The notes under the pieces: model-generated
Seen by the model: the letters and a program-made list of their open reading frames with translations, nothing else
Told to the model about the DNA's origin: nothing
Database searches by the model: none
Shown: piece by piece, positions 1,345-63,654 of the stretch
How positions within the stretch are numbered: position 1 is the first letter of the stretch
Layout of the letters: each line of letters starts with the position of its first letter
Made by a program: the position numbers and the translations under genes
Assembly: GCA_022539475.1 (NCBI GenBank)
Contig: VCMS01000260.1
Coordinates: forward strand, 23,238-87,237
Origin: Gracilaria domingensis
Lineage: Eukaryota; Rhodophyta; Florideophyceae; Gracilariales; Gracilariaceae
Length of the DNA stretch: 64,000 bases
Direction of reading: 5' to 3'

Positions 1345-2330
1345 GTGTTGAACTGTGAGATTGACACTTCCGAACCGGTTTACTTGTTTAGGAGTCAGAA
1401 CTACAAAGTCCTGACAGCCCTCTATCACAAGCCCCGCCTAACACGGATGATCACAAGTGTTCTGGACACAGGAGCATCCCCAAACCTGGTACACACCCGC
1501 GCTTTACCGCCCGGATGGGAGTCTCAGTTATTACCGATCAAGGCTCCCCGTGTATCGGATGCGTCCAACCGTTCGATGAATATTCTCGGCGTAATACCCC
1601 TGGATATCCGACTCGGTAACTTGAAGGTACGGATCCGGTTCTTGTATCTTCCAACCTGGCAGTGGACTGTATCCTGGGCACATCCTTTATAGATCGATAC
1701 ATCAAAGCGATCTACCCCGGGGAACGGAAAATTTCGTTCTACAACTCACCACCCGTGGCCCTTCTTGACGCACACAAAGGTTCTCGAGATGGGAAGCCCA
1801 TCCCCGCTCGCATCCCGAGACACACGGCATCACAGAAGCTTCGTGTCGCTCGCTCCATCATGCTCCCTCCTATGTCTGAGACGGCTGTCTTGGTTCAAAC
1901 CGATACAAGTGGAATGGTTTACTTACAGAACAAGATTCAAACCGTTCGCCGGAACCTGCAACTACTGGCAAATGGAGTGATGGAAGTTCTTCCGAACCGG
2001 CCATTCCATGTATTGGTGGCCAACATGAGCGAACGACCCACAACTCTATCGAAAAACACCGTAGTCGGCGAAGCTCAACCAGCCCCCGCTGCTCTTTTCT
2101 CCATCACCAACCCCACTATCACACAAGTCGACGAGGACGTCGACAGCCCTAAGAAGGGGGGTACAAAAGACGAGATTGAGTCACCGGAAGCGGACTGGAC
2201 ATCGACAGTGCACATCGGTGAAGAGTACGAGCCGCAGCGGAATAAGATCATTCAGCTGCTTTCCGAGTACGCTGATATGTGGACGGACACTTGGGAACAA
2301 TCTCGGCCGCAAAACATCGGATTGAACTAG
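1345..2330 (+). pseudogene. gypsy-1 aspartic protease region
   Basis: The retropepsin that would process the gag-pol polyprotein. The active-site triad DTG is seen in VLDTGASPNLVHTR near 1467-1510, and the flap/C-terminal region continues as DCILGTSFIDRYI in an overlapping frame from 1662, so a frameshift lies near 1662-1692. The stretch 1760-2330 is the linker to reverse transcriptase. It contains the peptide SPKKGGTKDEIES, encoded by a polypurine tract. gypsy-2 has the equivalent DTG and an equivalent PKEGG linker. There is no evidence of a functional product in this copy. Confidence 0.8.
2147..2162 (+). other. Internal polypurine tract in gypsy-1 pol linker
   Basis: CCTAAGAAGGGGGGT lies between protease and RT. 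It is the same 14-base core (CTAAGAAGGGGGGT) as the tract before the 3' LTR. It resembles the central PPT of lentiviruses and Ty1. gypsy-2 has CTAAGGAGGGGGG at the matching place. Function is inferred. Confidence 0.5.
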
Positions 2331-3407
2331 ATCCTGATGCACGTCCAGTGCACCAAGCCCCCTACCGATCCGGTCAGAAGGCCCGAGAATGGGAGAAGGA
2401 GCAAATCACAAAGATGTTGAGGGAAGGAGTAATTGAACCGTCTTCGGCAGAGTGGGCTAGCCCCGTCGTCATCGCCTTGAAGAAGGATGGCTCCTGGCGC
2501 TTCTGCATCGATTACAGAAAGCTCAACGCCGTCACAGTTCGTGACTCTTACCCGATACCACGGATGGATGAATGCATTGATTCACTGGGAGACGCAAGAG
2601 TGTTCTCTACCCTTGACGCCAACTCGGGGTATTGGCAAGTGGAAATAGACAAGCCCGATAGGGCCAAAACTACTTTCACCTCCCACGTGGGTCTCTACCG
2701 CTTTATTCGGATGCCATTTGGTTTGAAGAACGCCCCTGCGACGTTTCAAAGAGCTATAGATGTCATCCTGAATAAGGTTCGTTGGCAATTTGCTATCGTG
2801 TATCTCGACGATGTCATAATCTACTCGAGCTCCGTCACGGATCATTACCGACACCTAGCTAAGGTACTTGACCTACTCCGAGAAGCCGGAATAACACTGA
2901 AGTGAAGAAGTGCTTCTTCTTCCAGTCAGCAGTTGATTACCTGGGACATGTGATCCGACCCGGGAAGCTTCAAGTGGCGTCGAAGACTTGTGACGCTGTG
3001 ACAAAAGCTAAACCACCACGGACACAGACCGAGCTCCGGGCGTTCCTAGGTCCCTCCAATGTCTACAGACGCTTCGTGCCGAACTTTGCAAGGATCTCCC
3101 ATCCGCTGAACCGGAAGCTTGAGAAGGACCAACCTGTCGACCTCGAACCGTTTTCGGAAGAAGATATGGAGGCGTTCGAAGAACTGAAGAAGAGGCTCAC
3201 CTCCCCTCCAATTCTATCTTTACCGAAACCCGGAAAGCCCTACATCTTGGAGACGGACGCCTGTGACGTCAAGTCGGATGTACTCTGCTACAGCAGCAAG
3301 AAGATGAGAAAGACTACCGCCCAATCGGATACTGGAGCCGTTCGTTAACCGCGCCGGAAAGGAACTACAGCACCTCTGAGCGAGAGTGCCTGGCCATCGT
3401 ATGGAGC
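2279..3407 (+). pseudogene. gypsy-1 reverse transcriptase and start of RNase H
   Basis: Reverse transcriptase fingers and palm are read from 2279: the entry segment with REGVIEPSSAEWASPVV, FCIDYRKLNAVTV, then FSTLDANSGYWQ, RMPFGLKNAPATFQ and the catalytic YLDD in AIVYLDDVIIYS. A stop or shift after TLK (2903-2905) moves to another frame (2902-3348) with YLGHVI, FLGPSNVYRRFV and the beginning of RNase H (LETDACD, first catalytic Asp). Bases 3349-3407 bridge to the next open frame. All key RT residues are present, but the frame is broken at least twice. Confidence 0.88.
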
Positions 3408-5681
3408 ATGCTACTTCTAAGGCCATACCTGGAAGGACAACGTTTTGTAGTTCGAACGGATCACAACGCTTTGCGCTGGCTCCTCAATATAACCGACGCT
3501 ACGGGAAGACTCGCGAGGTGGCGTCTACGCCTCGCAGAGTTTGACTTTGAGGTGCACTACCGACCCGGCATAAAACATCTTCCTGCCGACGCAGTGTCAC
3601 GGATGCCGACCGACGGAAATGATGAGACGCCTTTGGAGGATGAAATCCCATGCCTGTTCATAGAAGAGATAGAGACCGACACGGACTATGTTGTGGCAGA
3701 TGTCCTCGTTAACGGAGAAGTCATCAAGGACGCGCTGATCAACTGGCCAACAATCACCGATGACGGTGAGCCCTTGCATGTATTCACAACCGTCCCGGAG
3801 CAACCTGACGTCACTCCGATAACGGTTGAAGAGTTCATTGCCGCCCAGGCGAGGGACCCTTTCTGCAAAGCTAAGGCCGAATCCGTCGGAGATCCTAAGT
3901 CCCAGTTTGACTACAACCGTTCCGGGATACTGTGCAGAATATCACCGATCGACGGAGCAGTACAGAGAGTCGTACCGGAGTCCCTACGGGAAAGAGTTCT
4001 TGAACTCGCTCATTTCCAACGCTTGGCTGGACACCCCGGTGCAATCAAGATGTACTACACCCTACGTCGGGATTTCTACTGGCCACTCATGTCGCAGCAT
4101 GTATTTGAGACCTTCTCTCGGTGTGAACCGTGTCGAGCCGTTCGCGGAACTCATTTCAGGAACCAAAAATACTTGAAGTTGTTCCCGGCAACGGGTCCCT
4201 TCGAGTTTGTGGCCATGGACATACTCGGACCATTGCCGAAAACCGGACGCGGAAAGAGATACATATTGGTGATAACGGACCGCTTTACTAAGCTCACTCG
4301 AGCCATACCGCTGTCGGACACGAAGGCCGCTGATATCGCTATCGCGTTCCTCGAGAATTGGGTCTACCCTTACGGGATTCCTACTTACCTCCTCACCGAC
4401 AATGGCCCGCAGTTCGTCGCCAAGTACTTCGAGTCGCTCTCTGCTGATCTCGGTATTACGCACGCTCTCACGACGGCATATCATCCGCAGACGAACGGGC
4501 AGGCCGAAAGGTTCAATAAGGTTTTGGTGAACCGCTTGCGGAATTACGTAGCAAAGCACCAGAAGGACTGGGATAAGTTGGTCCAGCCGTTGGTGTACGG
4601 GTACAACCTGCAGGTTCACCGCTCAACCGGATTCACTCCCTTCGACCTCTCTCTTACGCGGCACCCTCCCGGGATCGTGCTCGACGAGCCTACGTCAGCT
4701 CTCCCGCAAACGGCATCTCTCCACCCGACAACGGCTGAGACCCGTCGCGTAACACGGGCCCGAATATCGGAACTAATCAAGCTAGCCTACACCAAATTAG
4801 GCAAAGCGCAGGAGCGCTACAAAGCGTCCTTTGATTCCCGGATACGGTACACTCCAACCTTTAAGGAAGGGGATATGGTTTACTTGGACGCTCCGCCTCG
4901 GAAGAAGAATTCAACTGAGTACGAGGATATCGTCAAGAAACTGCTGCCGGCTTCGGAAGGTCCGTATAAGGTCGTTCGTGTTACCGACACTACTGTCACA
5001 CTGGATATTGACGGGTTACACGATATTGTTAGTATTGACCGAGTGACGGCGGCGCCCGCTCCTGTTTCCGAGGAGAGCGCAACCCCCGCCCCCGTCACCG
5101 ATTCTAGTTCCGAATCGGCCACCCCTCCTATTTCCGAAGAGAGGGAAAATATGGCTGATAAAACCAATAATGGAAGAGCCGCTACGGAACCGAACGCTCG
5201 CCCAGAAGCGCCGCACTCGGAGGCCACGCCTGCACAGCCGCTGGAAGAACCCGCTCCGGTTGAAGACAGTACCTCCGATACGCCGCTCGCTGCACACGCG
5301 ACTCCGCCTACATCTCAGCCGACCACGGCTTCTACTCACCCAGAGACGGAAAAAGAATGGGTCGTGGAGAAGGTCACCGGCCACGGTACAGCCGAAGACG
5401 GTGAGGAGCTCGTACGAGTGAAGTGGTACGGTTTCAAGAAGTCTACGTGGGAACCGAGCCGCAACATTCCACACAACTTTGTAGAACGGTACTTCCGACG
5501 AACGGCTCGCGAGGACGCATCGCAACCTAAGAAGGGGGGTACGAAACGCCAAACACGGAAGCAAAGAATCCTGAAACGGCAGTCCGCCTCCAACATTCTA
5601 GAAGCGTTTCTCCGAATCCCGGCATTGGAAAGCGACAACAGCTGGCGCGGGTTACTATTGTGCTCACCATCACATTCATGA
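3408..5681 (+). CDS. gypsy-1 RNase H end, integrase and chromodomain
   Basis: The longest intact pol piece (757 codons). It opens with the end of RNase H (VRTDHNALRWLLN, ADAVSRMP). The integrase zinc-binding region follows (LAHFQRLAGHPG...CEPC, His/His/Cys/Cys), then the DDE core: VAMDILGPL, LTDNGPQFV and HPQTNGQAERFNK hold the two Asp and the Glu. After a Pro/Thr/Glu-rich spacer comes a C-terminal chromodomain at roughly residues 640-705: EWVVEKVTGHG, RVKWYGFKKSTWEP, FVERYFRR. Chromodomains of this kind steer integration toward marked chromatin. The tail past it includes a second PKKGGTK peptide. It would need fusion to upstream frames to be expressed. Confidence 0.92.
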   Translation: MLLLRPYLEGQRFVVRTDHNALRWLLNITDATGRLARWRLRLAEFDFEVHYRPGIKHLPADAVSRMPTDGNDETPLEDEIPCLFIEEIETDTDYVVADVLVNGEVIKDALINWPTITDDGEPLHVFTTVPEQPDVTPITVEEFIAAQARDPFCKAKAESVGDPKSQFDYNRSGILCRISPIDGAVQRVVPESLRERVLELAHFQRLAGHPGAIKMYYTLRRDFYWPLMSQHVFETFSRCEPCRAVRGTHFRNQKYLKLFPATGPFEFVAMDILGPLPKTGRGKRYILVITDRFTKLTRAIPLSDTKAADIAIAFLENWVYPYGIPTYLLTDNGPQFVAKYFESLSADLGITHALTTAYHPQTNGQAERFNKVLVNRLRNYVAKHQKDWDKLVQPLVYGYNLQVHRSTGFTPFDLSLTRHPPGIVLDEPTSALPQTASLHPTTAETRRVTRARISELIKLAYTKLGKAQERYKASFDSRIRYTPTFKEGDMVYLDAPPRKKNSTEYEDIVKKLLPASEGPYKVVRVTDTTVTLDIDGLHDIVSIDRVTAAPAPVSEESATPAPVTDSSSESATPPISEERENMADKTNNGRAATEPNARPEAPHSEATPAQPLEEPAPVEDSTSDTPLAAHATPPTSQPTTASTHPETEKEWVVEKVTGHGTAEDGEELVRVKWYGFKKSTWEPSRNIPHNFVERYFRRTAREDASQPKKGGTKRQTRKQRILKRQSASNILEAFLRIPALESDNSWRGLLLCSPSHS
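5526..5540 (+). other. Second internal polypurine tract, after the chromodomain
   Basis: CCTAAGAAGGGGGGT again, 3' of the chromodomain and in frame (PKKGGTK), so the first two of the three gypsy-1 copies encode the same peptide. It may be a duplicated PPT or a conserved peptide. Confidence 0.45.
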
Positions 5682-5770: not shown

Positions 5771-5890
5771 GCTCAACGCGCGGCACACACGGGGGCGCCC
5801 AGCATGGACGCGGCACACGCGGTGGCGCAAAGCAAGGACGCGATGCACGCGGCGGCTCCCGGCAAGGACGCGCCACGCCACGGAGAGCGA
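5771..5890. repeat. 30-bp tandem repeat, about 4 units
   Basis: The string GCAAGGACGCG or GCATGGACGCG recurs at 5802, 5832 and 5862, a period of exactly 30, with a weaker unit from 5771. It lies between pol and the reverse-strand ORF of gypsy-1. Confidence 0.7.
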
Positions 5891-6305: not shown

Positions 6306-8278
6306 CTACGATTGCGGAACGTCCTTCGCTTCCGGTATTGGAGACTGCGGTGGAGTGACCGTTGGGTACAAAGCAAGTTCTGGTTTGAGTGCTTCGCCCG
6401 TCCATGGCTCCAATCGAAACGTATCTGTCACATCCTCAATGAGGCTTGCTTGCGCCCCTTGGAGGATACCATCCATCGCGTTGCACATGTCGTTGTGGAC
6501 ATCTATCGCACGCCTTGCAAACCGGTCACGGAACTCGCTGAACTGGCTCGCGTACTCTCGCAATCGAGATGCGCTCCCAGCCCATTCTTTGGCCCGTTGG
6601 AGAGCCTGTACCGCACTATTGGATCGCGGCAAACCGAGCCTCTCGCACTCATCATTCAGCGACTGCAGCGCAGTGGCAACAGCCGCATCGGTCTCATCTT
6701 CATCCGCTGTCTCGGGCTTGTTTGTGTGAGGAAGCTGTAGACTCGAAGGCTGCCCATTCTTGTCGGCTCCTGCTGCGACTTGCGTCCTTTGAACTTCATT
6801 TTCTGGAGCTTCGATGTTCGGACTTGAAACTGGAACTGCAGTTTGAACGTCCTCCGTATTGCTTTCCAAAACGGATTCTTTCGGGAAGACCTGCGCAGCC
6901 GCAGTTATGACCGGATCAGAATCAAGCAGCACTGAGCGAAGAACAGGACCGAGGTGCCCACCAGGTAGTGACTCCTTTACGAACCCTGCCGCCCTCGGAA
7001 AGTATAGTTGAACGCTCTTCCTAGGAGCATCCATCCATTCCGCCTCGGGAAGGTACGGAGGGTTGTACAAGTACTCTTTCCCATCATCTCGCATCACAGG
7101 ATGTCGAGGGATGTCCGGAAAACTGTCGGAGTCGTAATCATACCAAAGAAAGCCCGGTCTTGGAGTCCTGTCCCAATCGATCTGACAGACGTAGTCAAGG
7201 AGAGAATCCGCTTCGGAAGCCTTAAACTCCGTTCCTCGAACAATGTTTTGAACCCCGACGTCACGGATTAAACGCACTAACTCAGGTGGGAGGCGAAAGA
7301 GACGCCCTGCGGGGCAATTCAAATCACGATCGTGACCAAGTCTCCAGTCGCTAAACTTGAGCTGCATGCGCATACCGTATCGGGCGGCAAAAAGAAAGCT
7401 CAGGAATGCCAAGACGATCCACTCCGCGTTCAGTACCTGCCACGCAAGGGTGGCAAGGCGGTTCTCGGTCAGTAACAACGCGGAAAAGTAGGAGATGATT
7501 GGTGGCGTCGGCACGCAGAGATACCGACTCACCGCGAAGACACCCGATTCCGGAATTGTGACATAACGACCTTGGCGCAAAGGGCGAAGCAGATCATGGA
7601 ATTCTTGGTTGTGCCAAGAGAAGAAGAAGCCATGGCCGTCCCGGATGCGAGCTTCGGTGCTAACGTTATCGCCCCAGTGGTCTCGATTCGAGAAGAAGTA
7701 TATCTCATCGAACGGCGGTGTCCACGCTACCAAGCCGAGGATGTTATGACCAGGAGGAGGGAAGTGTCCTGCGGCAACCGAAACGGAGGGATCTCCAAAC
7801 TGAGCGCGAAGCAGGAGTAGTATCGCAACCAGGCGGCTTTGGTATTCTCGCTCCGGCAGACAACGGACCCATGGCATATCCGTTGGAAGACCAGGATCCA
7901 GGCGGACACCGATGTCGGAATGAAGAGGATTAACTCGCATGTGGGCCCACACCGCGCTTTCCAGGCACCATCACGGAGGCGTTTGTTGCTGGAGAAGTAC
8001 CCCCTTTCGGGATTCGATGGTATTGCTGCAAACCGCTGAGCGTCGAAGAATTCCCCGCCAAGGGATACATAATGATTAACCGAGTACGGTAGTGCCACTG
8101 AGCGCGCGCCAACTCGGTTGCGGTTGCCTAAGCGTCGATGCTCAAACTCCGTATCCGGACTTACCCATTGGTTACCACTCTGAGGCATAGCTGTGAGGAA
8201 CCGTTGCGGAGGAGGAGACAGGATTTGTTTAGAAAAGCAAGAGCTGGCGGCACCGGAAGTCGGAAGTTTTATGAGCAA
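6306..8278 (-). pseudogene. gypsy-1 reverse-strand accessory ORF (tail-to-tail with pol)
   Basis: I recognise no known family. The product reads from about 8278 in one frame, shifts near 7930-7950, and runs as a 548-codon frame to 6306. It lies on the strand opposite pol, between integrase/chromodomain and the 3' LTR. It aligns in order with the ORF at 54415-56635 of gypsy-2. Shared blocks are P(T/S)D(M/L)P near the start of the long frame, WGDN..(E)ARIRD, HNQEF, CVPTPP followed by a hydrophobic stretch ending AARYG, GRLFRLP..(V)..LIR, then an acidic Asp/Tyr/Pro patch. The C-terminal 250 residues are variable and low-complexity, ending in predicted helix. No signal peptide is evident, and no nuclease, envelope or zinc motif. 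A transcript would have to come from the 3' LTR side. Confidence 0.75.
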
Positions 8279-8374
8279 AAAACAAGGCGAACTGGGTGGG
8301 GCACTGTATGATGTAGAGCCCGAAATCGGATTTAGCGTTTTTGAGGGAATCGTTGTCCGAGGACGGACAACAAG

Positions 8375-8388
8375 CTAAGAAGGGGGGT
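8375..8388 (+). other. gypsy-1 3' polypurine tract
   Basis: CTAAGAAGGGGGGT lies 11 bases before a TG that opens the probable 3' LTR. It would prime plus-strand DNA synthesis. Confidence 0.6.
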
Positions 8389-8399
8389 CCGTAAGATAC

Positions 8400-8983
8400 T
8401 GTGCCGTGACGGTTGCAGTGGTGGCACTGTAAGGAAACCCGCTCGTCGGATGACATTGTTGTAGTAGATATAGTAGTAGTAGTAGTCCACGTGTATGCCG
8501 GTGGCAGCTAGTGCCCCGTGATCGGTAAGTCGTACACGTGTGTGGCGACGCCGGACGAGGTATTTATTTTCGCCAGCTCGGCTGTAGCCACCATGACAGT
8601 AAACCAAGGTGCTTCCTACTAGGTTCTTCGTCTTGTTTCCCGTGGCACGGATCCTAAGTCGTAGTAGGAACCCAGCTTGTCTAAGACCTGCACAGGCTGT
8701 TCTGCGGCGATATCACTACCGTTGCACCGGCTCTCTGGCTAGGCGCGTGGTACCTTTCTGGACTGCGCGTGTCTCCGTACTCGGTTTCACCACAGAGTGC
8801 CGTGGACTACTCCGCACCTTCAACGACCGTCTTTTCCGACTCGGCAGCTCACACGGCCTTACACCCCGTGTGCCGCGCATCCACACCACCGTTCCCGGAC
8901 ATTCTCTTGAGTAGTCGCTCGCGCGCACTATCTCACACTATGCATCTCTTGTGTAGAGTTGCATATACATAATCACAATAACA
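8400..8983 (+). repeat. Probable 3' LTR of gypsy-1
   Basis: Boundaries are inferred from TGTGCCGTGACG just after the PPT and an ending in AATAACA at 8983. The length of 584 bp compares with about 562 for the gypsy-2 LTR. The 5' LTR is outside the window, so this cannot be confirmed here. Confidence 0.4.
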
Positions 8984-9334: not shown

Positions 9335-10590
9335 TCAGAACGAGTCAAGATGCATCAAGCTGACCATCCTCCTTATATCAGCGAGGGACGCGCACTTTGT
9401 CAGTATGTCAGCGCTCTGTAGACTCCTTGGGATATGCAGCAACTTGATAATGTTTTCGGCAAACATATCTCTCACATGATGCATCTTCAAGTTAATGTGC
9501 TTGTTGCGACTAGAGATCTGAGGGTTTGTAGTGAGCGAAAGTGCAGCCGAGCTGTCCAGTAGAGTCTCCGTAGCCTCATACCAGAACTTCTTGCTCCAAG
9601 GCTGTTGGTGTGCGAATTCCCAAAACATCTTTCGGACCCATGTGATGTCCTTTGCGCATGTAGAAAGAGCTACGTATTCCGCCTCTGCTGACGAAAGATC
9701 AATGACGGTTTGACGCTTCGATTTCCACATGATTGGTGCGTCGTTGACGACGATTACGTACCCAGTAGTAGACTTGCGAGTCTCTATACATCCCCCTCCA
9801 TCGGCGTCAGCGTACGCACGAAGTGAGGCGGGAGTAATTGGAATATTCGATCGGTAGTGGAGTCCGTAGTCCAATGTACCAGCCACATACCTCAAGAGAC
9901 GCTTGAGCAAGGAAAAGTGGCGCTCGCAAGGATTGTGCAGATGCTTCGAAGGAGCCGAAACCGGGAAAGAGAGATCCGGCCTCGTAGATACAGCCATGTA
10001 GAGGAGTCCACCGATTACAGCCCTATAATTAGCGTGATCCATTGCAGAGAGAGCCTGCTCGTTCTCACTTGTAGGAAGTAAGTTCGCTACGGCTAGGAAA
10101 GGAGATTGCACCGTGTTGCATCGTTTCATCACAAACTTCCAGAGCAGTTGTATCGCGTAGCCATATTGCGTGACCTTTATGCAAAGCACAGAACGTTGGA
10201 TACTCCAGCCAGTAAATGACTTAAGTTCACCATACAGCTTCACGTCAAAGGTGGGCGATAGTCGTTCCTTGAAGTATGTCAGGAGGTTTACGCTGTTGGC
10301 GGCGAAGAGGCAGTCGTCAACGATTACTACCACTATAATGAACTGGTCTTCTTCACGGTACATGAAGACTAGTGAGTCGAGAGCCTATGTCACGAATCCC
10401 CATGACAATAGAGTTTCCGAGAAGAGGGAGCCCCAGATAATCCCAGCTTGCAAAGCTCCGTAAAGGAAGTTGAGTAACCGGCAGACGTGACCCGGTTTTG
10501 CAGGAATACCCGAGCAGTCGGTTGGTTGCTTCATGAGTATTGGGACGTCAAGTTTGCCGTAGAGATACGCGTTCGATATGTCAGCTCCTT
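9335..10590 (-). pseudogene. Copia RT (C-terminal part) and RNase H
   Basis: The end of a Ty1/copia pol. From 10590 downward the frame gives the RT motifs ADISNAYLYGKLD and LYGALQAG. An amber codon near 10388 interrupts it, then 10363-9335 is open for 342 codons. Visible are the catalytic Asp pair in VVIVDDCLFA (the YVDD equivalent), the post-RT signature YRAVIGGLLYMAVSTRPDLSF, and RNase H with AYADADGGG, STTGY, WKSKRQ, LSSAEAEYVAL, and the late segment NKHINLKMHHVRD...ADILTK. These are diagnostic of copia elements. A second shift near 10591 separates it from the RT N-terminus. Inactive. Confidence 0.93.
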
Positions 10591-11340
10591 CTAGTATAAG
10601 GTTCTTCGCAGCTGATACAGCAAGTAGAATACGAAGAGCTTTGTGGCAGGCAACAGGAGCGTAGGTGTTATTCGGATCGAAGTCAATGAAGGGCTTTTGC
10701 TTCTCCCCCGAAGACAGCAGCCTGCCTTCTTCAAGAACTTCTTTCCAATACCATCAAGCATTTTCTCCTGGAAGACCCAAGTGTACTGCACGGGCTTCAT
10801 CGAAGTTTCGCGAGGGATGAGTTCCCATGTCTTTGGCAGGAGCAAGGCATTCATTTCGCGGTCAATAGCTTCACACCATCCTGGGTCTCTGCACGCTTCC
10901 TTGAAGGAATAAGGTAGAGATGGGTCATCGAGTGTCTTCTTTGACACCCAAACCCGCCGGAAGTTGTGGGTAATGGTCGTGAAAGCTTTCACAAGATGCT
11001 CCTCCAAGTCCGTTCTCTCTGCATAGGGCTGTTCAGTGAGCTGGACCTCCATTTCATCGCCCTCTCCTTGTCTCGTGATACCTTCAAGGAGGCTTGATAC
11101 GTTGGGGAGTGGAGAGGAGTTGACCGGCTTGAAGTCTAGCTTCCGGCAGGTGACAACAGAGTTATTTTCGGGTACGAAGACGGGGAAGAGGATATTGTCA
11201 CTCTGCATGCCCACGAAGTGTGAGAACACTGACCGTGGTAAGAACTTATTATTTGGAACCGGTTTCGAGCGGTAGACGAACGCATAGCCAGTCTGTCCGA
11301 AGTTCGGAACGTGAGGGAAGTCGATCTTCGTCGCTACTTA
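10591..11340 (-). pseudogene. Copia integrase C-terminus and RT N-terminus
   Basis: The frame runs from PHVPNFGQTGYAFVYRSK, continues with FSHFVGMQSDN...FVPENNSVVTCRKLDF (the GKGYL-like end of copia integrase), an acidic linker, and DPSLPYSFKEACRDPGWCEAIDREMNALL, which is the classic start of copia RT, then WVFQEK. The sequence upstream of 11340 is not copia, so the integrase core is missing at this junction. Together with 15795-17565 it makes one interrupted element or two pieces of related ones. Confidence 0.85.
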
Positions 11341-18833: not shown

Positions 18834-21800
18834 AAGTTGCCATGCCCGGCCTCCTGTTAGTAGTTAAGCAATCAGACTCTTCGCAGAATTGTAACTTGCG
18901 GCATTTGGAGGTGAGCCAAAAGCTGCGGGAGGGGGCGTAGCCCACAGAAAACAAGAATAAAAGGGGCGCCCCAATTGTAGAGCAAAACGTGCTCGCCTGA
19001 TACGCGGGGATTGTACTCATAGCCTCATTGGTAGGAGCGATTCCGGGTACTCGAAATATATGAATAATGGCCCATGGATGGGATGTTTTCGCAGTATTGA
19101 GATATCGAACCCGCACAGGGTCGGCCATGACGGGGCAAGGAGTGTTACTGGACGCGTGTACGCGTGTGCATGAATGGTGTGCTCACACATGGTATAGAAT
19201 ATTTGTCGGATAGCTTACTGGCGGCTGCCGCGGGTCGTCGTGTACACCACATGTATGGACCTGCTTAGTTGTACATTAGATTACTTAATTTAGTTTCACT
19301 AATTTATCGGTTACGATATAAGAGGTGACCTCCCGGTCACCTTCGCATTCAGTAAAGGGTAACCGAGTTCGGCTCTGAACTACGTTCGCCTGCGCGAAGC
19401 GCGCAACTCCTTCAGGAAGGTCACTTCGTACGGTACGGACCAGCTTCATCCCTCGGGATCATTCAGGCGATTCTGATCATTTGTGGCCATTGCCCTCGGG
19501 CTTACTCCGTCTTCGGACCCCTTTTACCCTGCAGATACCTGCTTAATCACTAGTTGTACAACTACCAACTCTGTATAGAGATCTTTCCTGCGTGGGCTTA
19601 ATACACAATATCGTCCCCCGCCGCCGGATCTGTTGCCGCTTGTCGCATGCCCCGCCAGGGATATCCTACTTGTTCTTATCTATTTATCTTTTTGATCTAA
19701 GTTGTTTACTGTCCACTGGTGCCCCCCACCACTGGCCCACCACTGTGGTTTCCGTTTCCGGATCTTAACCAAGCCCGTTCTTCATCAACCTCCAAGGTAT
19801 ATCCCGAGGCATGGAAGGTCTTACAGACGCCATTTTCCGTGCAATTAGGGCTCATCCGCTGAGTCTATTTCTTACAGGGAGCAAGACTAGAATTCCTTGA
19901 GTGTGTCTTCTGTTCCCGGGTTTGGCACTATGCCAATGAGGAAAAACAGTTCACACGCAGGCAGCAGGCTCAAAGTTGAAGAAACACCACGGAAAAAAAA
20001 GACGCAATACTTCGGTGAACATCTGTCATGCAATCAAGGAATGATAAGTAATAATAGATGGAAATACCACACGGTATAAGCAGATTACTTGGGCTTCATA
20101 AAGAAAGTACGGGTATCTAGAGCTACGGAAGGGACCCTCCGAGCAAGGTCCTACTCTGGCAAGGACAGAAACACCTACAAATTAAACTCGTAATGAGTAC
20201 GAAATGTTGTTACTTTCGAGTGGTAGTTTTGGAAGGCGAATGTGGGTTAATATATTAGTGAGGTTTTTCTTTTGCAGGTCTTGGATATATAAGTACGCCA
20301 GCTGCAGAGTCAGATGACTGAGAGCAGTTGTGCACACCCCTACGAGTTTTACACGTACGACGCCCCACTACTAGGATCCCAAGATAAACAATAGCTAAGT
20401 CATTGCCGCAATTTCTCATAAGGGTGCACAAAAGCATATAAGCTCATTTGTCTAGACCATGTGGGTAGCCAGGACCCATGCAAGTCCGATGTAGGTATAC
20501 AAATAGTAATCAATTAAAATACGCACGGAAACTTCGGAAACTTTCATGTATGAATGAGTCATATTATAAGACGCGACTGCCATGTGCATCGGTGCATTGC
20601 TCACTTACGAAGAGCATCTTCGTCAAAACAACTCTAGAAGTTGCTCTACATCGTGCACAATTGCTAACGTTTTGCACAAGAAAAGCAGTGGGACGGTTCT
20701 TTCTCTTAGTTCTCTTGGCTTCGATTGTACTTGGTTTTAGATGAGAGCGAAAGTTATTTAGCACCGGCTTTAACAGGTACAAAGATTCTTATCTGAATGC
20801 GATGGGAACAATTCTCCGCATTTCGTAAAATCTATACTCTATGAAACTCTCCAGTTTAATGCATTACATTATCGACCTTCCAAATATCATACCGGTACTT
20901 GTGTGCACCAATCACAGATATTCAAATTGAATGTAGATTTTAGTGTGTTGAATATCTAGATTGGGGATTTCTTATATGTTTTACAGAACGAAGTTTGTTT
21001 GGTTTTCATTTGAAACCTTTGTTATTATAAGCATCGTCTTGTATAGAGATTGGAAGCTCTGATTTTGTTTTTGAGGCTGTTTTGAGCGACGATATTGTAT
21101 CAAGAATTCGCTTCAAAATGATAGATATTTGCTGTTTTGAGGTGGAGCAGAAACGAGTGGGATGAGAAGTAATGAAAGATTTAAAATCTGAGCAACTTGG
21201 CGCAGACGTTTTAATCGACGCTTGTGCTGTTGCCGTCTTTTTTCGCCCATTTTGTCTTATAATCTTGCTCTGATTTGTTCCGAAGACGGACGTGGTGCTT
21301 TGGTTAATAGCTGTCACAGATGGGCAGTACTTTTTGTCGAGATTAACCATAATTTGGTCCAATGAAATTAGTATTAGACAATATAGTCTAGCAGTAGATA
21401 TGTAATAGTTCTGCTTTCCGATGGACCTAGATTACTTTTATAGATGTAACTGTCGATTTTGGCTTTCGGTAAAGCTGTATCCGACTAAAACTGTCGATTC
21501 TCTGGACGTCATTTTGGTGGCAAACGACAAGGGTGTTTACAGACCCTTACACTTGCCTCTCGTAGCAAAAAGAGAGTTAGGGTAGAACAACCAGCCACTC
21601 TAAAAGACCAACGTGGGCCCAGAATCCACCAAAGAAATAAACGTAGTATGTCCAGGGGAAGATCCCAGGGCAAAGAAGGAAAAAGAACAAACTAGTGGTT
21701 GCACAACCCCCAGTCAAAAGAAAACGAACAACGGACAACAACAAACTGCACGCAAATTCTGCAGCCAAACGTATCTCTGCGCGTCCAGAGACAAGCGTAC

Positions 21801-44215: not shown

Positions 44216-45094
44216 TCACAACGCGCCGGCGCGCGCGGCGTCGAGCAGCTCGCCGTCCGCGTCCGCCGTGGCGTCGGGCGCGTCCTCGCCGTCGGCGTCG
44301 GGCGACGCGCTGGGCTCCGCCGTCTCGAGCGGCGCCTCGGCCGACGCGTCCGGCTCGGCCGCCTCCTCCGCCCCCTGCTGCTGCTGCACCGGCGGCGGCG
44401 CGTACGCGCCGGCCGCGCCGGCCGCGACGGGCGTGGGCGCGGCGGAGGCGAGCGACGCCATGATGGTCTGGCGCGCGTCGAGCGCGGCGGCGCCGCCGTC
44501 GGCGGCGCCGTCGTCGTCGTCGCGGCGCGCCGGCGCGGCGGCGGCGGCGACGCGGTCGTGCGTCGCGGCGGCGGCGGCGCGCGGCGTGGGCCGCTGCGCG
44601 TCCACCTCAAAGCCGACGCAGTCGCGCAGCGGGCGGCCGTGCAGCCGCAGCTCGTGCAGCACGGCGCCGCGCATCGACACCAGCTGCACGGTGTGCAGCG
44701 GCAGCGCGACGCAGCGCCCGGCCAGAAAGGCGTAGTCCGCGCCGCGGTTGGGCTGGTAGCCGACGGCGGCCGCGCCCGACGCGGTGGGGAACGTGGCGAA
44801 GAAGTTGGGCGCGCAGCTGCCGTTGGCGGCCGGCGGCGCCGCGCGGCTGATCAGCGCGTAGTACGCGGCGCCGGAGCGCACGAACGCCTCGCCGGACGAC
44901 GTGACGTGCACGGGGCGGCCCTCCAGGCAGATGGGCGGCGTGGCCGGCGCCGACGGCGGCGCGCGCAGCGACAGCTTGGCGCGCGAGCACAGCTGGAAGT
45001 CGCACGTCGGCGCGCACGACTTGGACACGCGGTGCGCGCCCGCGGCGCGCAGCAGCAGCAGCGCCAGCAGCGCCAGCAGCGGCGGGACGGGCAT
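44216..45094 (-). CDS. Secreted protein, paralogue A of a pair
   Basis: 292 codons. Residues 1-20 (MPVPPLLALLALLLLRAAGA) are a signal peptide. The mature part has paired Cys (CAPTCDFQLC), PPICLEGRPVHV, FFATFPTASGAAAVGYQP, GRCVALPLHTVQL and LRDCVGFEV, then an Ala/Pro-rich acidic tail of about 120 residues. The cysteines and the FF.TF, AAVG.Q, GRCVALPL and LRDCV.F.V blocks are shared with the next gene upstream (45698-46321), so the two arose by tandem duplication. No family recognised. A secreted or cell-wall protein is the likely class. Confidence 0.7.
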   Translation of the reverse strand: MPVPPLLALLALLLLRAAGAHRVSKSCAPTCDFQLCSRAKLSLRAPPSAPATPPICLEGRPVHVTSSGEAFVRSGAAYYALISRAAPPAANGSCAPNFFATFPTASGAAAVGYQPNRGADYAFLAGRCVALPLHTVQLVSMRGAVLHELRLHGRPLRDCVGFEVDAQRPTPRAAAAATHDRVAAAAAPARRDDDDGAADGGAAALDARQTIMASLASAAPTPVAAGAAGAYAPPPVQQQQGAEEAAEPDASAEAPLETAEPSASPDADGEDAPDATADADGELLDAARAGAL

Positions 45095-45114
45095 GGCGGC
45101 GGAACGAGCCGGGA

Positions 45115-45145
<31 letters not shown>

Positions 45146-45697
45146 GGGGGGGGGGCGGCGGCGGGGGGGCGGCGGGTTGCGACGGCTGTCGCCGCCGCGC
45201 CGTGGCGCGCGCGGAGGGAGGCGTGCCGCGCCACCATGTGCGCGCGCGCGGCGCGGCGCGGCGCGGCGCGGCGCCGCGCGCGGCGTGGCCGCGGCGGCGT
45301 GGCCGCGGCGGCGCGCGGGCGCGCGCGGCTGTCAGCGGCGCGCGGCGGGCCGCGGCGCGGCGGGGCGCGCGCGGCGCGGCGGCGGCCGCCGCGCGTGAAT
45401 TGCGGCTGTTGTCAGCAGCGGCGCATCGCGCTGTCAGACGCGGCGCGGCGGGGGGGTGGCGGCGGGGGGGGGAGGGGCGACGGGTGACGGGTGCTGGTGC
45501 GGGCGCTGTGCGGCGCGGTGGCGGCGGCGGCGGCGGCGGCGCGTAACGGATTGCGGTGGTGGCGCGGGGCGCGAGGTGCAGAGCGGGGGGGTGGGGCAGA
45601 GAAGCGGGTGCGCGTGTTTACTGCCTCCTATCGTATCAATTACAACGACAAACAGTTGAAGAGTCAAAGAGCGCTACTACGTCTGCTACGTCTACTC

Positions 45698-53392: not shown

Positions 53393-53393
53393 A

Positions 53394-53955
53394 TGTAGTA
53401 TAAAACTAGGTGGTGGCAGCAGTGGCTGCGGATTGGTACCAAATGGGTTCTAGGGAGCGCCTGGGGGTACTCAACCTAGGAGGAGAGGATGTGAGATCGG
53501 CCTGTAAGGTGTGGCAGCACCAGCCACTGGTGGGTGCAATACGGACGGCGCGCTTACTATAACCGCCTGGGTAGAGTGAGATGTATAGCGCTCACGGTCC
53601 GGTATCACCTGACGATACTATGCTAACCACTTGGTTGACTGTAGAAACCTTATGGTGAAGATCTAGCGTAGTAGGAGCTTAACTTTACCATTACGGTGGG
53701 AGGGGCTTCCACCTCGAGTATATGCTGTTGTGGGAGCCCCGACACGTCGTGGGAGAATAGCCACGTGTGCCACGGGAGGTGCGGCCGAAGTGCGGCGCCC
53801 TTTCCCCGTGCCCTGTCTAACTATTCTAAATTAAAGACTACAAATTAAAATTAAAATTACAAGTTAGTCCTCAATGGTGATTGCCACATGTCCTTCTTGT
53901 CCACCGTGCGGCTTGATCTTCGTTACCGACATTGGTCGCCTGGTACTATACGACA
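53394..53955 (-). repeat. gypsy-2 3' LTR
   Basis: 562 bp; on the minus strand it opens TGTCGTATAG and closes CTACA. It pairs with 63092-63654. The match continues one base further left (53393), so the duplication may be 4 or 5 bp. Confidence 0.93.
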
Positions 53956-53970: not shown

Positions 53971-54414
53971 GGCAGGCACGCCCCCGTGGCTGCAGCTTGA
54001 GGGAGGGACCGTCAATGGTCGCGGCTGCGGCATTGGTTATCACATTGACCAAAGTGGCATCGGGTGCAGTGCATCACAGGGCGGTTCGGATGCATCGCAC
54101 CCCGCCACGACCAGTTCGGTGTCAGTGAGCATGCCCATTGGCAGCGCGTCTATCGCATCGGGGTTTTCCTCGCCGTGTCCCTCTGTGGGTTAGTACCTTG
54201 ACGGTGTACGTCACCGCTTGGTGGGCCTCCCACGTCCCTTTCTTGCTGTCCTGGTTTTCGTCGTGTCGCTGACTATTCCGGGCGTGGCGCAATGGGACCT
54301 CCCGAGGATAAGCCCTTGGAGGTCGTGGGGCGCATCACAGCTCCCTCTCCGCCGGGAGGGAGCGCTCGTTCGCCTGACCATATGGTTAATCCTATTACTG
54401 GGTTGTGATTCGCC

Positions 54415-56635
54415 GTGGCCGTGCCCGTTCGCCTTCCTACGTCCTCTTCCGCGCTTGCCGTGGCGCCGCCGACCGATGGCCTGAGCGACTTCCCATCCGT
54501 CAGGGGCAATATCGACACACCGCACGGTTCTAATAGCTCCAATTCCCTCGCTGCTTCCTCTCCTCCGCCCTCCGGCATCCTATCAATCGCCATGTCTGGT
54601 CGGGGTTCTCGCGGGTCGCGCGGGTCGCGTGGTATCTCCAAATCAAATACCCGCTTTCGGTCTCGGGGTCGCGGTCGGGGATCGCTGACGGCCTCCGTTC
54701 GAGGTGCGTCCGCGAGCGCCTCTGCGTCCGCCCAGGCCATCGCTCAAGTCCTTCTCCCGGGTACCGGAGTGGCCTATGGCCCGTACATCACCACCCCAAT
54801 GCCCTCCGACCGGGCGAAGTTTGGACCGTTTGGTTTGACTCCAGACGTTTTCCGAACCGAACTGGAGAAGGTTACCTCCTGGTCTTTGAATGTTACCGAT
54901 GCGGTTGGACGTCCTTACGAACACCCCGACTTCGTTCGTTACACCTCCTGGCGGCGTTGGGATAGTCACCGAATGGCAGCCGTGGCTCACAATCCTCCGA
55001 AGCGGAATCGCGAGCCGCGTCACCGTCCTGGTCGACAGACGTGCTTCCACCAACGGTCTCACCATTCACCGTTTCGGTTCTATATTCCCGAATCGGTGCC
55101 TAGCGACTTGCCCTACTTACGGTTGGATGACGAACTGCTGTACTTTCGGAACCTCGTGGGTATCATGCATGAGCTAGGGCCTTTTTCCACTAAAAGAAGT
55201 TCGGTACCGATTGGGTTGGCCCACCGGGGCCATATGATCGCCTTCATTGGACAGACGGTCGAAGGTGGGGAGATGACGTCGCGCTAGAGTCTCGCATTCG
55301 CCATCGCGGTAGTCTCGTCGGTACCATGCATGGTTTTCACAACACGGAGTTTTTCTCTCAGAGTAACGATGACCGCCGCAAGTGGTATGTCCAGCAACCC
55401 GATTGGTGGTCGGCGTACGAAGTCCCAAAGTGGTTGTGTGTCCCTACCCCTCCTGTGTTTGCTCACTTCGGGAGCCTTACCAGTGAGGGTTCCCCTTGGT
55501 TTCACACCGTATGGTCCGTGGCCTTGTGCGAATGGGAAGTCCTCGTTGCCATCCTCGCGTTGGAAGCCGCCCGATATGGTATCACTTGGAATTGTCGCAG
55601 CCCCGAGAGCGCTCTCTACGCACACCGGTATACCCCAGTTGGTCGCTTATTCCGGTTACCGACTAGGGTCATAAGTCTCATTCGGAAGTTGGGGCTGACC
55701 CATTTGGTGGTCAACACCTCCCACTCGGAACAGCAGTTGGATGCTTATCTCACCGCCGCGGCGGACTACCAGTGGAGGAATGACCGTGTTGGGAGGTGTG
55801 GGATTATGAGAACCAGAGGGTATGTCCTCATGGTTCTCGGGGTCTTCCTGAAGATCCTCACGTGCCCGATGATGCCGAGTATGGTCATGTGGTGCAGACT
55901 CCGGACGCTGCGAAACCGAGTGTTGGTGCACTTCCTGGTTCCTCTGGTCAGGGCGCCCCTGATTCGGCTTCTCTTTCTCTTCCGGTTCCCTCCGCTGGTC
56001 CTTCCCAACCGTTTGCGGCTCCCAATATCCCGATGGGTAGGGGTGAGCCTCTCATTTCTTCCTCTATTGCCGGCGCCCTGATGCGTATGCAACAGTCGTT
56101 CGTGTCGACACTCAACCGTCCTGGTCCACAGTCCATTCAGGAAGCCTTGGCTCTGATAGAGGCTCTTATTCCCCGCGATGCTCGGCATGTCGCGGCGCTT
56201 AACAGCATTACCGCGTTCCGCTCTCAGTTTCAAGCCGACTTGTACCACGTGGTGACCGATCAGGTGGGTGCTTTGACCGGTCATTTGGATGCCGCTCCGA
56301 TCACTGGGGATCCTCTTCTTGGCACTTTGGTCGGCTCGTTGATTCTGAATAGTGGTGCGTATCCTGTTGGTAATGTGCTGCAGCCACCGTTGGGACCGAC
56401 GGGTACCGCGGGTGCCGGTAGTGCTCCATCGCCTCGGCCTGGTGCTCCACCTACTCCTTCTTTGTCCACTCCCATGGCTAGCAGTGCTAGTATGGTGCCT
56501 ACCCCTGCGGTTGGTGCCGGCGCCGGGCCTGTTCCTGCGTGGGCTCCAGGTGTTCCTTCTACTCCATCTGGTCCTCCTAGTGGTCCTGGGCCTAGCGGTG
56601 GTGCAGGGGGCAGTGCTGCGTCGTTTGGTCCATGA
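54415..56635 (+). pseudogene. gypsy-2 reverse-strand accessory ORF (tail-to-tail with pol)
   Basis: Runs opposite to pol and ends 111 bases from the pol end. Three frames: 54415 to about 55260, then to about 55795, then to 56635, total about 740 codons. Two single-base shifts are inferred from alignment with gypsy-1. N-terminal 110 residues are Ser/Arg/Gly-rich with RGRGRG and SRGSRGSRG, like RNA-binding RG boxes; gypsy-1 lacks this. The core shares V(P/S)..LPYLR-type, WGDDVALESRIRH, MHGFHNTEF, CVPTPPVFAHF...LEAARYG, GRLFRLP..VISLIRKLG and DYQW blocks with gypsy-1. The C-terminus is Pro/Gly/Ser-rich after a helical stretch. Family unknown. Conservation of core but not tails between diverged elements points to past selection. 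Confidence 0.8.
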
Positions 56636-56745: not shown

Positions 56746-59700
56746 TCATGTTCTGCGCTCGCGAGTTTCTCCCCCTCTCTCCTGAGTCCGAGGTACCACA
56801 TCGGGCAATGCCTCTGGTGGTGGGGTTTGCCCCCGTTTGCGCCAGTAACGGATAATAAAGTTACGTGGGATATGGTGGGGAGGTTTCATTATGTCTGCAC
56901 TAGGCGGCCATCCATACCAGCGCACGCGGTATTTAAGTCCTTCATTGGTTTGAGCGTGGCTGATTACCGTGTCGATTGCGCACTCGGTCGTGGATACCGC
57001 AGGGTGGGCATGGGGTGGCGTCGTTACATCGTCGTCTGTTACCCGCTCCCGTGGTGGTGCCGACGTAGGGTCTGCAGTTACCGCCTTGGTATGGGCTCCT
57101 GCTCCCGGTGTCGAGGGTGGGGCCGGTGGAGCCAGTACGTTAGTGTTTGGTTCTATCCTCAGGGGTGCATTCTCCTCGTTAGGTGACGATTCGCGGGTGT
57201 GTGGAGGCGCTTTGACAATACGATCGACCGAAACGGTGTTCTCCAATCCATCCATCTGGATGGTGATGGTGTGGGCGTCTGCTCGAATCACCTTGTAGGG
57301 TCCAGTTGACTTGGGTAAAAGCTTGGAGCGGATACCTTCGTCGATGATTATATCGTCCTTTTCTTCCGCTGGGGTTGGGCGAGCTCCATCTCGTGGTATG
57401 TCTAGGTAGACTTCGTCACCTTCTGCGACCTGCGTGACCTGACGAACCTTTCGGTCGTAGTCGGCATTGTTTTTCTGTTGGGCCAGTGTAAGCTTCCCGT
57501 TTGCGGCCTGAAAGGTAGTGCGAAGCCGGTTTAGGATGTCCTTCTAGACCTGCGCCGGCGCGGTAGGCCCTGGGGCGTGGATGACGGCGGGTCCTGCTTG
57601 AACTACGATTCCCTGGGGGCTACGGGATAGTACCAAGTCGAATAGAGTGGTCTGGGTGGTACGGTGCACCTGCATGTTATAGGCGTATGTAAAGGGTTGC
57701 ACATAATCGGCCCAGCCAGTTTGGTGTTCTTCGACGTAATGTCGGAGCCGTCCCACTAAGGTCTTGTTATAGCGCTCAACCTGTCCATTAGTCTGGGGGT
57801 GGTACGCTGTTGTGAAGTAGTGTTTCACGCCCAGCATGGTGCAGACTGCTTCGAAAACCTTCGATGCGAGTTTGGAACCATTGTCGGTCAACAGATAGAG
57901 CGGTGCTCCACATGGGTAAACCCAGTGGGTCAGAAAAGTTTCCGCCAGGGCTGGTGCTTTTGTGTCCTTCAAGTGTATCGCCCTTGTCAGTTTCGTGAAC
58001 CGATCGTTGATGAATACGACGAACCGGTACCCGTTGGAGGTTTTCAGTAGTGGGCCAAGGATGTCGATAGCGACAAACTCGAGGGGCTTTGCCGCTGGGA
58101 ACAATTTGAGGTACTTGTGATGCTTTCTTAGGCCTCCACGAGTTTTCATGCACGATGCACAGTTAGCCACGAAGGTGTATACGTCGTGAGCCATGTGAGG
58201 CCAGTATAATTGTCTCCGTAAGGTGTAGTATAGCCGGGTGGCGCCTGGGTAGCCTGAAAGGCGCGGACAATGCGCTAAGTACAACAAACTTTGTCTTAGG
58301 GAGACTGGCACGACCTTCTGTAGGGCTCCGTCTAGAGATGAGTGCCTGACCAAGTACCCCTCGTGGTCTACGTCAAATTGGGAGTGGGCTGTACCGATTT
58401 GGTCCGCCAACGTTTTGCAGTAGGCATCACTTGCTTGTTCGCGCACGAATTTCTCTTTTGTGATATGAGCGTCTTCCTCTGCATTCGTTTCTTGGGACGC
58501 TGCTATGACCAGTGGGTTGTCCCGTTTTTCTCCTCTGCGCGAACTCAGTGGATCATCCCATGTACCTTTGAGGGTTTCTGTTGCGTCTGGCCCTTGCCAC
58601 CTGATGGTGGAGCAGGGTAGGTCGTCTTCAACCGATTCGGTGTCCATTCCGTCGGTATTAAGTCTGGACAGTGCATCGGCTACCCGGTGCTTGATGCCCG
58701 GGCGGTACTGGACGTCGTATTCGAACTCCAATAGGCGCAACGGACACCGCGTTAGCCTTCAAGAGGCGTCTGCGAGTCCCAGGATCCAGCGGAGGGCGTC
58801 GTGGTCCGTCCTTAAGGTAAACCGTACGCCATATAGGTAAGGTCGCAGTAGTAGCATGCTCCAGACCACTGCGAGGCATTCTTTCTAGGTGACCGTGTAG
58901 TTCTGTTCCGCTTTGGTTAGGGCTCTGCTTCAGTATCCTATCGGTAGCTTGGTGCCATCTTCCTGTTCCTGCATGAGGCAGCAACCAAGCTGGGCCTCCG
59001 ATGCATCAGTGTCTAGGGTATACGGTAGGCCAGTTTTCGGTAGTGCCAATATCGGTGGTGACAATAGCGCTGCTTTCAGCGGCTGAAAAGCTTCGATCTG
59101 CGCATCTTCCAGGTATTTAAACCTCAGTGGTTGTCCCTTCTGCAATTTACGGTTCAATGGGGCCGCTATCGTTGCGAAACCCTTAATAAACCTGCGGTCA
59201 ACATTGCATAGACCTATAAAGGAACGGATGTTCGTTTGTGAAAGGGGAAGCTTCGCTTCCTAGACTGCTCGAATGCTTCGTTGGGATACTTTTAGCCGTT
59301 CCGTACTTATGGTGTGTCCAAGGTACTCCACTTTTTGGTCAAAGAATTTGCACTTGCGGAGCTTTAGCATGACTCCAGCGTTCCTTAGTAGGCTTAGCAC
59401 TGTTCCAACATGGTCAAAGTGTTCCTCAACTGAGCGGGAGTAAATTATTACATCGTCTAAGTACACCAAAGCGGTTGTCCATTTCACCTTTGAGAGGATT
59501 ATGTCCAAGACCCGTTGGAATGTAGCTGGGGCATTACACAACCCGAAGGGCATTCTCCTGAACCTATAGAGACCTGCCTGGCACGTGAACGTAGTCTGGT
59601 CCCTGTCCTCTTCGGGTATTTCTATCTGCCAGTAACCACAGTTGGCATCTAGCGTGGTAAATATTTTCGCATCCCCGAGGGAATCGATGCATTAATCAAT

Positions 59701-60915
59701 TCTGGGTATCGGGTAGGAGTCTTTGACCGTTATGGTGTTCAGTTTCCGGTAATCTATGCAGAACCGCATGCGAGATTCCCCTCGTTTCTGGACTAGGACC
59801 ACTGGGCTAGACCACTCCGCATTTGCGGGTTCGATAACCCCCTCTCGGAGCATCCTCTCCACCTCTTCTAGTTCGCCCTCCCTTTCCTTAGATCCTGCTC
59901 TATAGGGTTGTTGGTGGATCGGTCGTGAGCCTGGGAGAAGGTCGATTATGTGTTTGGTAACCTTTATAGCTCCCAGCCGTCCTGACCACATGGCGTTAAA
60001 GGGTTCCAGTAGGGAGAGGACACGGTTTCGGAGGTGTTCACCTTCTAGGCCGATGTTAACCTCCTCTTTCCAATCCGTGACTGGGTCCAGTTCCAATCTC
60101 CTACTCTTGGTCTCGTCATTTTCCTTGATCAATTGGTGTTCGTTTGCTTCTACATCACTTTCGGCTCCCCCCTCCTTAGGGTTCACGCCCTCCAGTGACC
60201 ACGATGGGGTAAGGGTGTAGATATCGGTCGGTGTGGGTAGGGCAAGAACGAGGATCGTGTTCTTGGTTAATCGGACCGCACGGTGTCCATAGTTGCTAAG
60301 GTAAACCTGGAATGTTCGGTTGGGTATATTGTCTACAATACCATTTGCCATGAGGGTCAGGTGTTTGTTGACAAACTTGGCACAGTTTTGCAAGGAGATG
60401 AGACCTGGTCGTAGGCATGTTGCGTTGACCCCTAGTTGGTGCATTGGGGGTATGACGATGGATTGTGCTAGGCGAACCTTATTGGATGTAGTAGCTGTTG
60501 CTACTTGGTTCACTTTGCTTCCCTTGGTTGGTTGTGAGAGACTACCGATGATGGCGATACGGGGTCCATCGTTAAGGAGGACCGTTCGCGACCGAGGGAT
60601 AATGGCCCGTACGTGTCGGTCGATAAACGTCGTGGCTAGGATGCAGTCCGTGGCGAGGTGGTTGATCACGATGACTTTTACTCGTACCTTGGGGTTCTCA
60701 ATGACGACCATAAGGGTGAGAGTTCCGAGCACCGCTAGCGGTTTGTTGCTAGCATCGACAAGTTGGTTTGGAAGTGTGCACGGTCGTAATGGGTGAAGTT
60801 GCCTCTTTGACAGTAGTCGGGCGTTGACCAGATTTCAAACCTCCCAAGTTGGTGCGGATCCCGTGTCAAAGACCGTTACACAGGGAACCAAAGGGTTTGT
60901 AGAAATTCCAAGGGT
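56746..60915 (-). pseudogene. gypsy-2 pol: protease to chromodomain, stop codons but no frameshift
   Basis: One frame from about 60915 to 56746. Protease: FDTGSAPTW then a TGA near 60841, and DCILATTFIDR. RT: FCIDYRKLNTITV, PIPRID then TAA at 59692, MPFGLCNAPATFQ, YLDDVIIYS. Further stops: TAG 59260, TGA 58930, TAG near 58887, TGA near 58759. RNase H: LDTDASEAQLG and RTDHDALRWIL. Integrase: CPRLSGYPG...CASC, AIDILGPLL, LTDNGSKLA, HPQTNGQVERYNK (DDE present). TAG at 57544, then the linker and a chromodomain (YRVRWYGWPPSADIMKPP..IPRNFIIRYW) at the C-terminus. Compared with gypsy-1, the stops replace Glu, Trp and Gly codons. Inactive as it stands unless stops are read through. Confidence 0.92.
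60163..60180 (-). other. Internal polypurine tract in gypsy-2 pol linker
   Basis: CCTAAGGAGGGGGGAGCC on the minus strand, encoding the PKEGG peptide between protease and RT, at the same place as the gypsy-1 tract at 2147. It resembles the 3' PPT (AGGAGGGG). Confidence 0.5.
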
Positions 60916-63088: not shown

Positions 63089-63091
63089 AAA

Positions 63092-63654
63092 TGTGGTATA
63101 AAACCAGACGGTGGCAGCAGTGGCTGCGGGTTGGTATCAAATGGGTTCTAGGGAGCACCTGGGGGTACTCAACCTAGGAGGGGAGCGTGTGAGATCGGTC
63201 TGTAAGGTGTGGCAGCACCAGCCACTGGTGGGTGCAATGCGGACGGCGCGCTTACTATAATCGCCTGGGTAGAGTGCGATGTATAACAATCACGGTCCGC
63301 TATCACCCTGAAGATACTACGCTAATCACTTGGTTGACTGTAAAAATCTTATGGTGAATATCTAGCGTAGTAGGAGCATAACTTTACCATTACGGTGGGA
63401 GGGGCTTCCACGTCGAGTATATGCTGTTGTGGGAGCCCCGGCACGTCGTGGGGGAATAGCCACGTGTGCCACAGAAGGTGCGGCCGAAGTGCGGCGCCAT
63501 TCCCCCGTGCCCTGCCTAACTATTCTAAATTAAAGACTACGAATTAAAATCAAAATTACAAGATAGTCCTCAATGGTGATTGCCACATGTCCTTCTTGTC
63601 CACCGTGCGGCTTGATCTCCGTTACCGACCTTGGTCGCCCGATTCTATACGACA
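63092..63654 (-). repeat. gypsy-2 5' LTR
   Basis: 563 bp, partner of 53394-53955. Carries the element's promoter; TATAAAA-like words occur at both ends. Confidence 0.93.

Follow-up and report, generated by a model that had tools for sequence, protein, structure and literature searches.

Many retrotransposons of the red alga studied here carry a conserved gene near their far end, on the strand opposite to their other genes. The gene was followed from a stretch of 64,000 nucleotides of Gracilaria domingensis DNA (hereafter the window; C260:23238-87237), and the genome searched was the same assembly (77.9 Mb, 680 contigs). The window holds two long terminal repeat (LTR) retrotransposons, gypsy-1 and gypsy-2, which are assigned to the Ty3/gypsy group by the domain order of gypsy-1 (reverse transcriptase, RNase H, integrase), the LTR pair of gypsy-2 and the 3' LTR of gypsy-1. 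In both elements, an open reading frame (ORF) lies antisense to gag-pol, between pol and the 3' LTR, which is the position called aORF-3R. The frame is kept open across diverged copies and changes mostly at third codon positions, and we consider it very likely to be a conserved antisense protein gene of the element.

The reading frame and the selection acting on it

In gypsy-1, the antisense gene is read on the minus strand from an ATG at about 8188 to a stop codon at 6306. The original prediction, made from the letters of the window, had placed an antisense frame between pol and the 3' LTR of this element, and the frames, the pol domains and the placement of the LTR bear this out. It had also described a single frame of roughly 650 codons spanning 6306-8278, but the reading frame of the window copy shifts near 7955, and the open minus-strand stretch of this copy (6306-7970) counts 554 codons. 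The copy must be broken at this point because an intact sibling locus, L003, aligns with the window in two pieces, 8374-7952 and 7955-6309. The larger part, 6306-7955, encodes most of the conserved core, the linker and the helical C-terminal part. The gypsy-2 copy, taken earlier for one frame at 54415-56635, is in fact spread over three frames. Family members match it at 54856-55176 and 55230-55775, and the predicted alignment between the two copies stands, as L003 matches both (at 34% identity over 55230-55808 in gypsy-2).

Intact open frames of 688 codons are present in L003, L004 and L005, all in the same genome; in L003 the first ATG is residue 63 of the open frame, which leaves 626 codons from the ATG. 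The chance of an open frame as long as that of L003 is about 2.5e-12 from base composition alone. A chance open frame was ruled out by this length together with a six-frame test, in which five pairs of copies showed zero stops in the ORF frame, with a ratio of nonsynonymous to synonymous differences (pN/pS) of 0.06-0.20, and 12-43 stops in all other frames. The sense strand was likewise rejected as the true coding strand, since its three frames contain 12-40 stops over the aligned codons. In one of these, frame 4, pN/pS is low (0.14-0.23), which is what mirrored third positions would produce, yet the frame holds 23-40 stops.

Substitution rates point the same way. Fourteen pairs were compared: six gave a finite ratio of nonsynonymous to synonymous rates (dN/dS), dS was saturated in seven, and the last pair differs at just one site. 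The finite values are 0.097, 0.105, 0.107, 0.156, 0.232 and 0.285, those of 0.105 and 0.107 being rough, with dS above 2 in both pairs. In 13 of these pairs, changes were most frequent at the third codon position, the fourteenth having one difference. A further 15 pairs within gypsy-1, with 0-12 differences each, were taken as uninformative. The reading frame is under purifying selection. Three outcomes had been named in advance as fatal to the proposal, and none came true as far as tested: other family members do keep the frame intact, the finite dN/dS values are 0.10-0.29, and no match to a host gene that would betray an accidental capture was found.

The same pattern bears on whether the antisense RNA, and not a protein, is what matters, the open frame being secondary and convergent transcription producing double-stranded RNA that damps the element. 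Geometrically, the antisense gene and the genomic RNA would overlap in the 3' part of the latter, and a review (PMC7264820) discusses such a role. Low dN/dS and frames that stay open across diverged families disfavour this explanation, which we regard as very improbable.

A family across the genome and beyond it

The genome-wide searches for the ORF and for pol score best candidates only, and all locus counts given here are among the matches listed. These numbered 54 in a DNA search, 80 in a protein search with the gypsy-1 frame and 134 with the gypsy-2 frame; 27 of the latter lie in open frames of at least 900 codons with no stop inside the match, including one odd frame of 4018 codons. Merging gave 179 ORF loci and 191 pol loci. 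A pol match was found within 10 kb of 129 ORF loci, and at 128 of these the ORF lies 3' of pol in antisense orientation, the median gap for loci with such a pol match being 1.7 kb. The sole same-strand case, C205:56530-57424, has its pol match 7.6 kb away. Three same-strand exceptions seen with an earlier pol list (C123, C205 and C206) proved antisense once a nearer or other pol match was found. Seen from pol, an ORF match is present at 128 of the 191 loci; at one pol locus without an ORF match, on C38, the single place inspected, no frame longer than 109 codons occurs in 2.4 kb. The frame had been thought conserved between two elements: it is indeed kept across families, but the 179 loci and at least four clades make it much more than a two-element case.

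Copies vary in length and sequence. Nine genome copies measured from the first ATG range from 545 to 908 codons, and the shortest, L034, may be truncated by a stop, a further piece with a TAG being among the matches listed. For a 790-codon family seen on C2, an integrase is encoded on the other strand (L074). Identity to the gypsy-1 copy is 26-52% for the remaining eight proteins of a nine-member alignment, and the motifs picked out originally (WGDD..EARIR, HNQEF, CVPTPP, GRLF.LP and LWYDY) all fall in conserved blocks of that alignment. Outside the window, C85:178344-178685 on the minus strand matches the family at 44% identity within an open frame of 4018 codons, possibly a fusion, a repeat or a host gene.

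Relatives were also sought among 5.8 billion proteins, each search of this set scoring about 8000 candidates. A single-sequence search gave no match at E <= 10. A profile search retrieved P0001 (674 amino acids, E 2.0e-138) and a core-profile search six relatives, P0001-P0006. P0001 and P0002 are long and open, the second having 652 amino acids and 60% identity to the first over the matched part; P0003, P0005 and P0006 are incomplete or damaged. P0004 starts as a DnaA protein (closest to Saprospiraceae among the records scanned) and ends in a P0001-like part at 97%. It is probably an assembly chimera that joins bacterial DNA to DNA of an algal element, and it was excluded from alignments A3 and A4; in a contig scan with P0004, every one of the 80 loci listed matches its DnaA part. 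Two scans of viral contigs, each with one short pattern, yielded no relatives. In a tree of 11 rows, whose root serves drawing only, P0001 pairs with P0002 (support 90/97), and four more groups are made up of copies from this genome. Because of the database relatives and this grouping, we take the family to reach beyond the present assembly and several of its clades to be old.

Protein features, possible roles and known counterparts

The protein consists of a conserved core, about 350-400 residues long, and a C-terminal part that varies. In the core alignment 42 columns are invariant; nine of these are Arg, three Asp, three Glu and two His. RG-rich tails, with 7-10 RG in the last 120 residues, are found in four of 11 proteins, and P0001 and P0002 end in KRPR-type clusters. 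Kyte-Doolittle maxima of the 11 proteins are 1.21-1.81, located in a moderately hydrophobic stretch around a conserved EW motif.

In none of the proteins scanned did the family part give a Pfam match that reached the cut-off. The five window frames, at E <= 10, gave weak matches below the cut-off (PhoR 0.13, DUF7934 0.51), and the nine members, at E <= 1, similarly weak ones to PhoR, DHC_N1 and DUF883 (0.17-0.27). Transposase_28 (PF04195) was absent at E <= 1 from the nine members and at E <= 10 from the five window frames; bZIP was absent from the nine members at E <= 1. One sequence had no match in PDB, and the best profile values, E 0.28 and 1.1, were taken as chance. The protein family appears to be new by these comparisons, in agreement with the earlier view of an accessory gene without known match.

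Place, strand and composition lead us to a working model, which we find quite possible and still tentative. An antisense mRNA would begin within the 3' LTR or immediately inside it, and its product would be a mostly soluble protein, probably located in the nucleus; this protein would act on the nucleic acid of the element and regulate or assist its replication or integration. Its role may well be regulatory, and a similar one has been proposed for Grande gene 23 and the Retand TRP28 proteins.

Several observations weigh against the conserved gene or against this model of its action. Pairs within gypsy-1 that involve L017 differ at few sites and give ratios above 1 or lack synonymous changes. 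No pol match accompanies 50 of the 179 ORF loci, and no ORF match 63 of the 191 pol loci. The gypsy-1 copy, L025, L034 and others have neither RG nor KRPR tails. The hydropathy maximum exceeds 1.6 in three of the 11 proteins (1.66, 1.73 and 1.81), which makes a membrane helix possible. Finally, a structure model built from P0001 plus other database proteins and window pieces was unusable (predicted local distance difference test, pLDDT, 35.5; predicted template modelling score, pTM, 0.23).

The hydrophobic stretch near the EW motif would suit a structural or membrane protein made from the opposite strand, envelope-like or capsid-like, serving particles or cell-to-cell movement, and the RG-rich tails of some families resemble those of nucleocapsid-like proteins. 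However, no env or gag match was found in Pfam, a separate sense frame at 81-1255 looks gag-like (by eye, with no Pfam match), and Env-like ORFs are sense in the plant elements covered by the review (PMC7264820). We hold such a protein to be quite unlikely. The ORF loci without a pol match within 10 kb raise another alternative, that copies exist outside elements and that the gene came from, or still is, a host gene or the cargo of another mobile element, serving its own spread or the host; the C85 match inside its very long open frame fits this too. Yet place and strand are the same at all but one of the listed loci with a pol match, 10 of the 50 pol-less loci had an antisense integrase match under another, hand-picked pol list, and no inverted repeats flank the gypsy-1 gene, with only two short, chance-like pairs at gypsy-2. 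This origin seems highly doubtful to us. If the protein were an enzyme, such as a nuclease or a modifying enzyme, or else served the element as a counter-silencing factor, this would account for the invariant His, Asp and Glu beside the Arg residues of the core; those residues may equally be structural, neither a known enzyme motif nor a Pfam match was found, and we judge this possibility unlikely.

The working model of a regulatory or assisting antisense protein has counterparts in layout. According to the review (PMC7264820), the place of antisense accessory genes in LTR retrotransposons is known, their function is not established and most reports come from plants; aORF-3R stands for an additional ORF in antisense orientation, located between pol and the 3' LTR, in Grande, RIRE2, Retand and the fungal element Boty, Grande gene 23 is reported as nuclear with its own promoter, and an antisense promoter in the 3' LTR of human T-cell leukaemia virus (HTLV) is mentioned. 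The original prediction had tied such ORFs to the plant Tat lineage; plants do have them, but Boty shows that they extend further. Grande gene 23 and the aORF-3R of RIRE2, PvRetro13 and Boty share place and strand with the algal ORF. They are likened to it by place and strand only, and no SMC or other Pfam domain was found in the algal family.

Retand is the most fully described case. According to a second paper (PMC11963269), its aORF-3R with Transposase_28 occurs in flowering plants, nearly all recent elements of the lineage keep the ORF, and tandem repeats occur in that region; its function is given as unknown, and a DNA-related regulatory role is proposed. The algal ORF has the same place and strand, antisense between pol and the 3' LTR. 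Transposase_28, however, marks the Retand ORFs and is not matched in the algal family, and Retand belongs to a non-chromovirus plant lineage, whereas the present carriers, from an algal host, have a chromodomain-like tail. HBZ of HTLV-1 is a retroviral antisense protein whose gene is read inward from the 3' LTR; here the likeness is of layout only, and the algal family has no bZIP match.

The layout is thus already known, while the protein and its host are apparently new: no description of such a gene in a red alga or a chromovirus was found in the open full-text literature, searched mostly as titles and abstract starts, with subscription papers and repeat libraries outside the search. That an alga has an apparently unrelated protein family in this slot suggests that the slot has been used repeatedly or for a very long time. 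We put forward, more speculatively than the working model, that the family may represent a new class of retroelement accessory protein, with its own fold and possibly a catalytic site, expressed antisense from the 3' LTR side, which would have arisen early in the evolution of algal Ty3/gypsy elements, been inherited with pol through several clades and be present in other organisms. Its conservation over many diverged families provides alignments for testing structure and function, and annotators are warned not to take such antisense frames for host genes.

The carrier elements and their surroundings

The genome contains 14 phycobilisome-linker matches, four of them on contig C680, which show that the host alga has phycobilisomes and is most simply a red alga; this supports indirectly the red algal setting of the original prediction. 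The carriers are likely chromoviruses, as first predicted: their Chromo matches sit at the expected place, the C-terminus of the integrase, but both score below the Pfam cut-off, which is not formally reached (Table 1). The gypsy-2 element is oriented on the minus strand. In gypsy-1, the 3' LTR is located 3' of pol and upstream of the antisense gene on the minus strand; it was placed with a DNA query (window 8300-8950), positions 92-638 of which recur as separate copies. For this copy, no 5' LTR was found among the matches listed for the LTR query or in L155. LTRs of some carriers match the query at 99-100% (rounded), for example at C204:10155-10701 and 20212-20852, which shows recent movement of carriers.

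Table 1. Positions of the antisense genes and of their carrier elements in the window.
Feature	Position	Strand	Basis
Antisense gene, main part, gypsy-1	6306..7955	-	Open minus frame 6306-7970; L003 residues 140-688, 99%
Antisense gene, N-terminal part, gypsy-1	7952..8188	-	Other frame, 7727-8374, from ATG; L003 residues 1-141 at 100% (8374-7952)
Antisense gene, gypsy-2 copy	54409..56635	+	Three frames: 54409-55287, 55194-56081, 55784-56635
gypsy-1 pol frames	2276..5681	+	Pfam RVT_1, RT_RNaseH, Integrase_H2C2, rve, Chromo
gypsy-1 integrase	4191-4487	+	Pfam, within pol frames
gypsy-1 chromodomain-like tail	5358-5501	+	Chromo 22.6 bits, under Pfam cut-off 25.1
gypsy-1 3' LTR	8391..8937	+	Recurrent genome-wide DNA matches; sibling loci stop matching at ~8937
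gypsy-2 pol frames	56746..60834	-	Integrase_H2C2, rve; integrase in 57544-58758
gypsy-2 chromodomain-like match	within 56746..60834	-	Chromo 17.1 bits, cut-off 25.1
gypsy-2 3' LTR	53393..53907	-	Direct repeat with 63091-63606, two blocks 92% and 94% identical
gypsy-2 5' LTR	63091..63606	-	Direct repeat with 53393-53907

Three imperfect tandem repeats of 30 bases occupy 5779-5868, between the chromodomain-like tail of gypsy-1 and the end of its antisense gene. Just past the 3' LTR of this element, at 9335-11337 on the minus strand, there are broken frames that look by eye like a Ty1/copia-type polyprotein. Elsewhere in the window, two adjacent minus-strand frames, 44216-45331 and 45698-46918, have signal-peptide-like starts and, by eye, similar Cys-containing sequences; they are perhaps tandem paralogues encoding secreted proteins.
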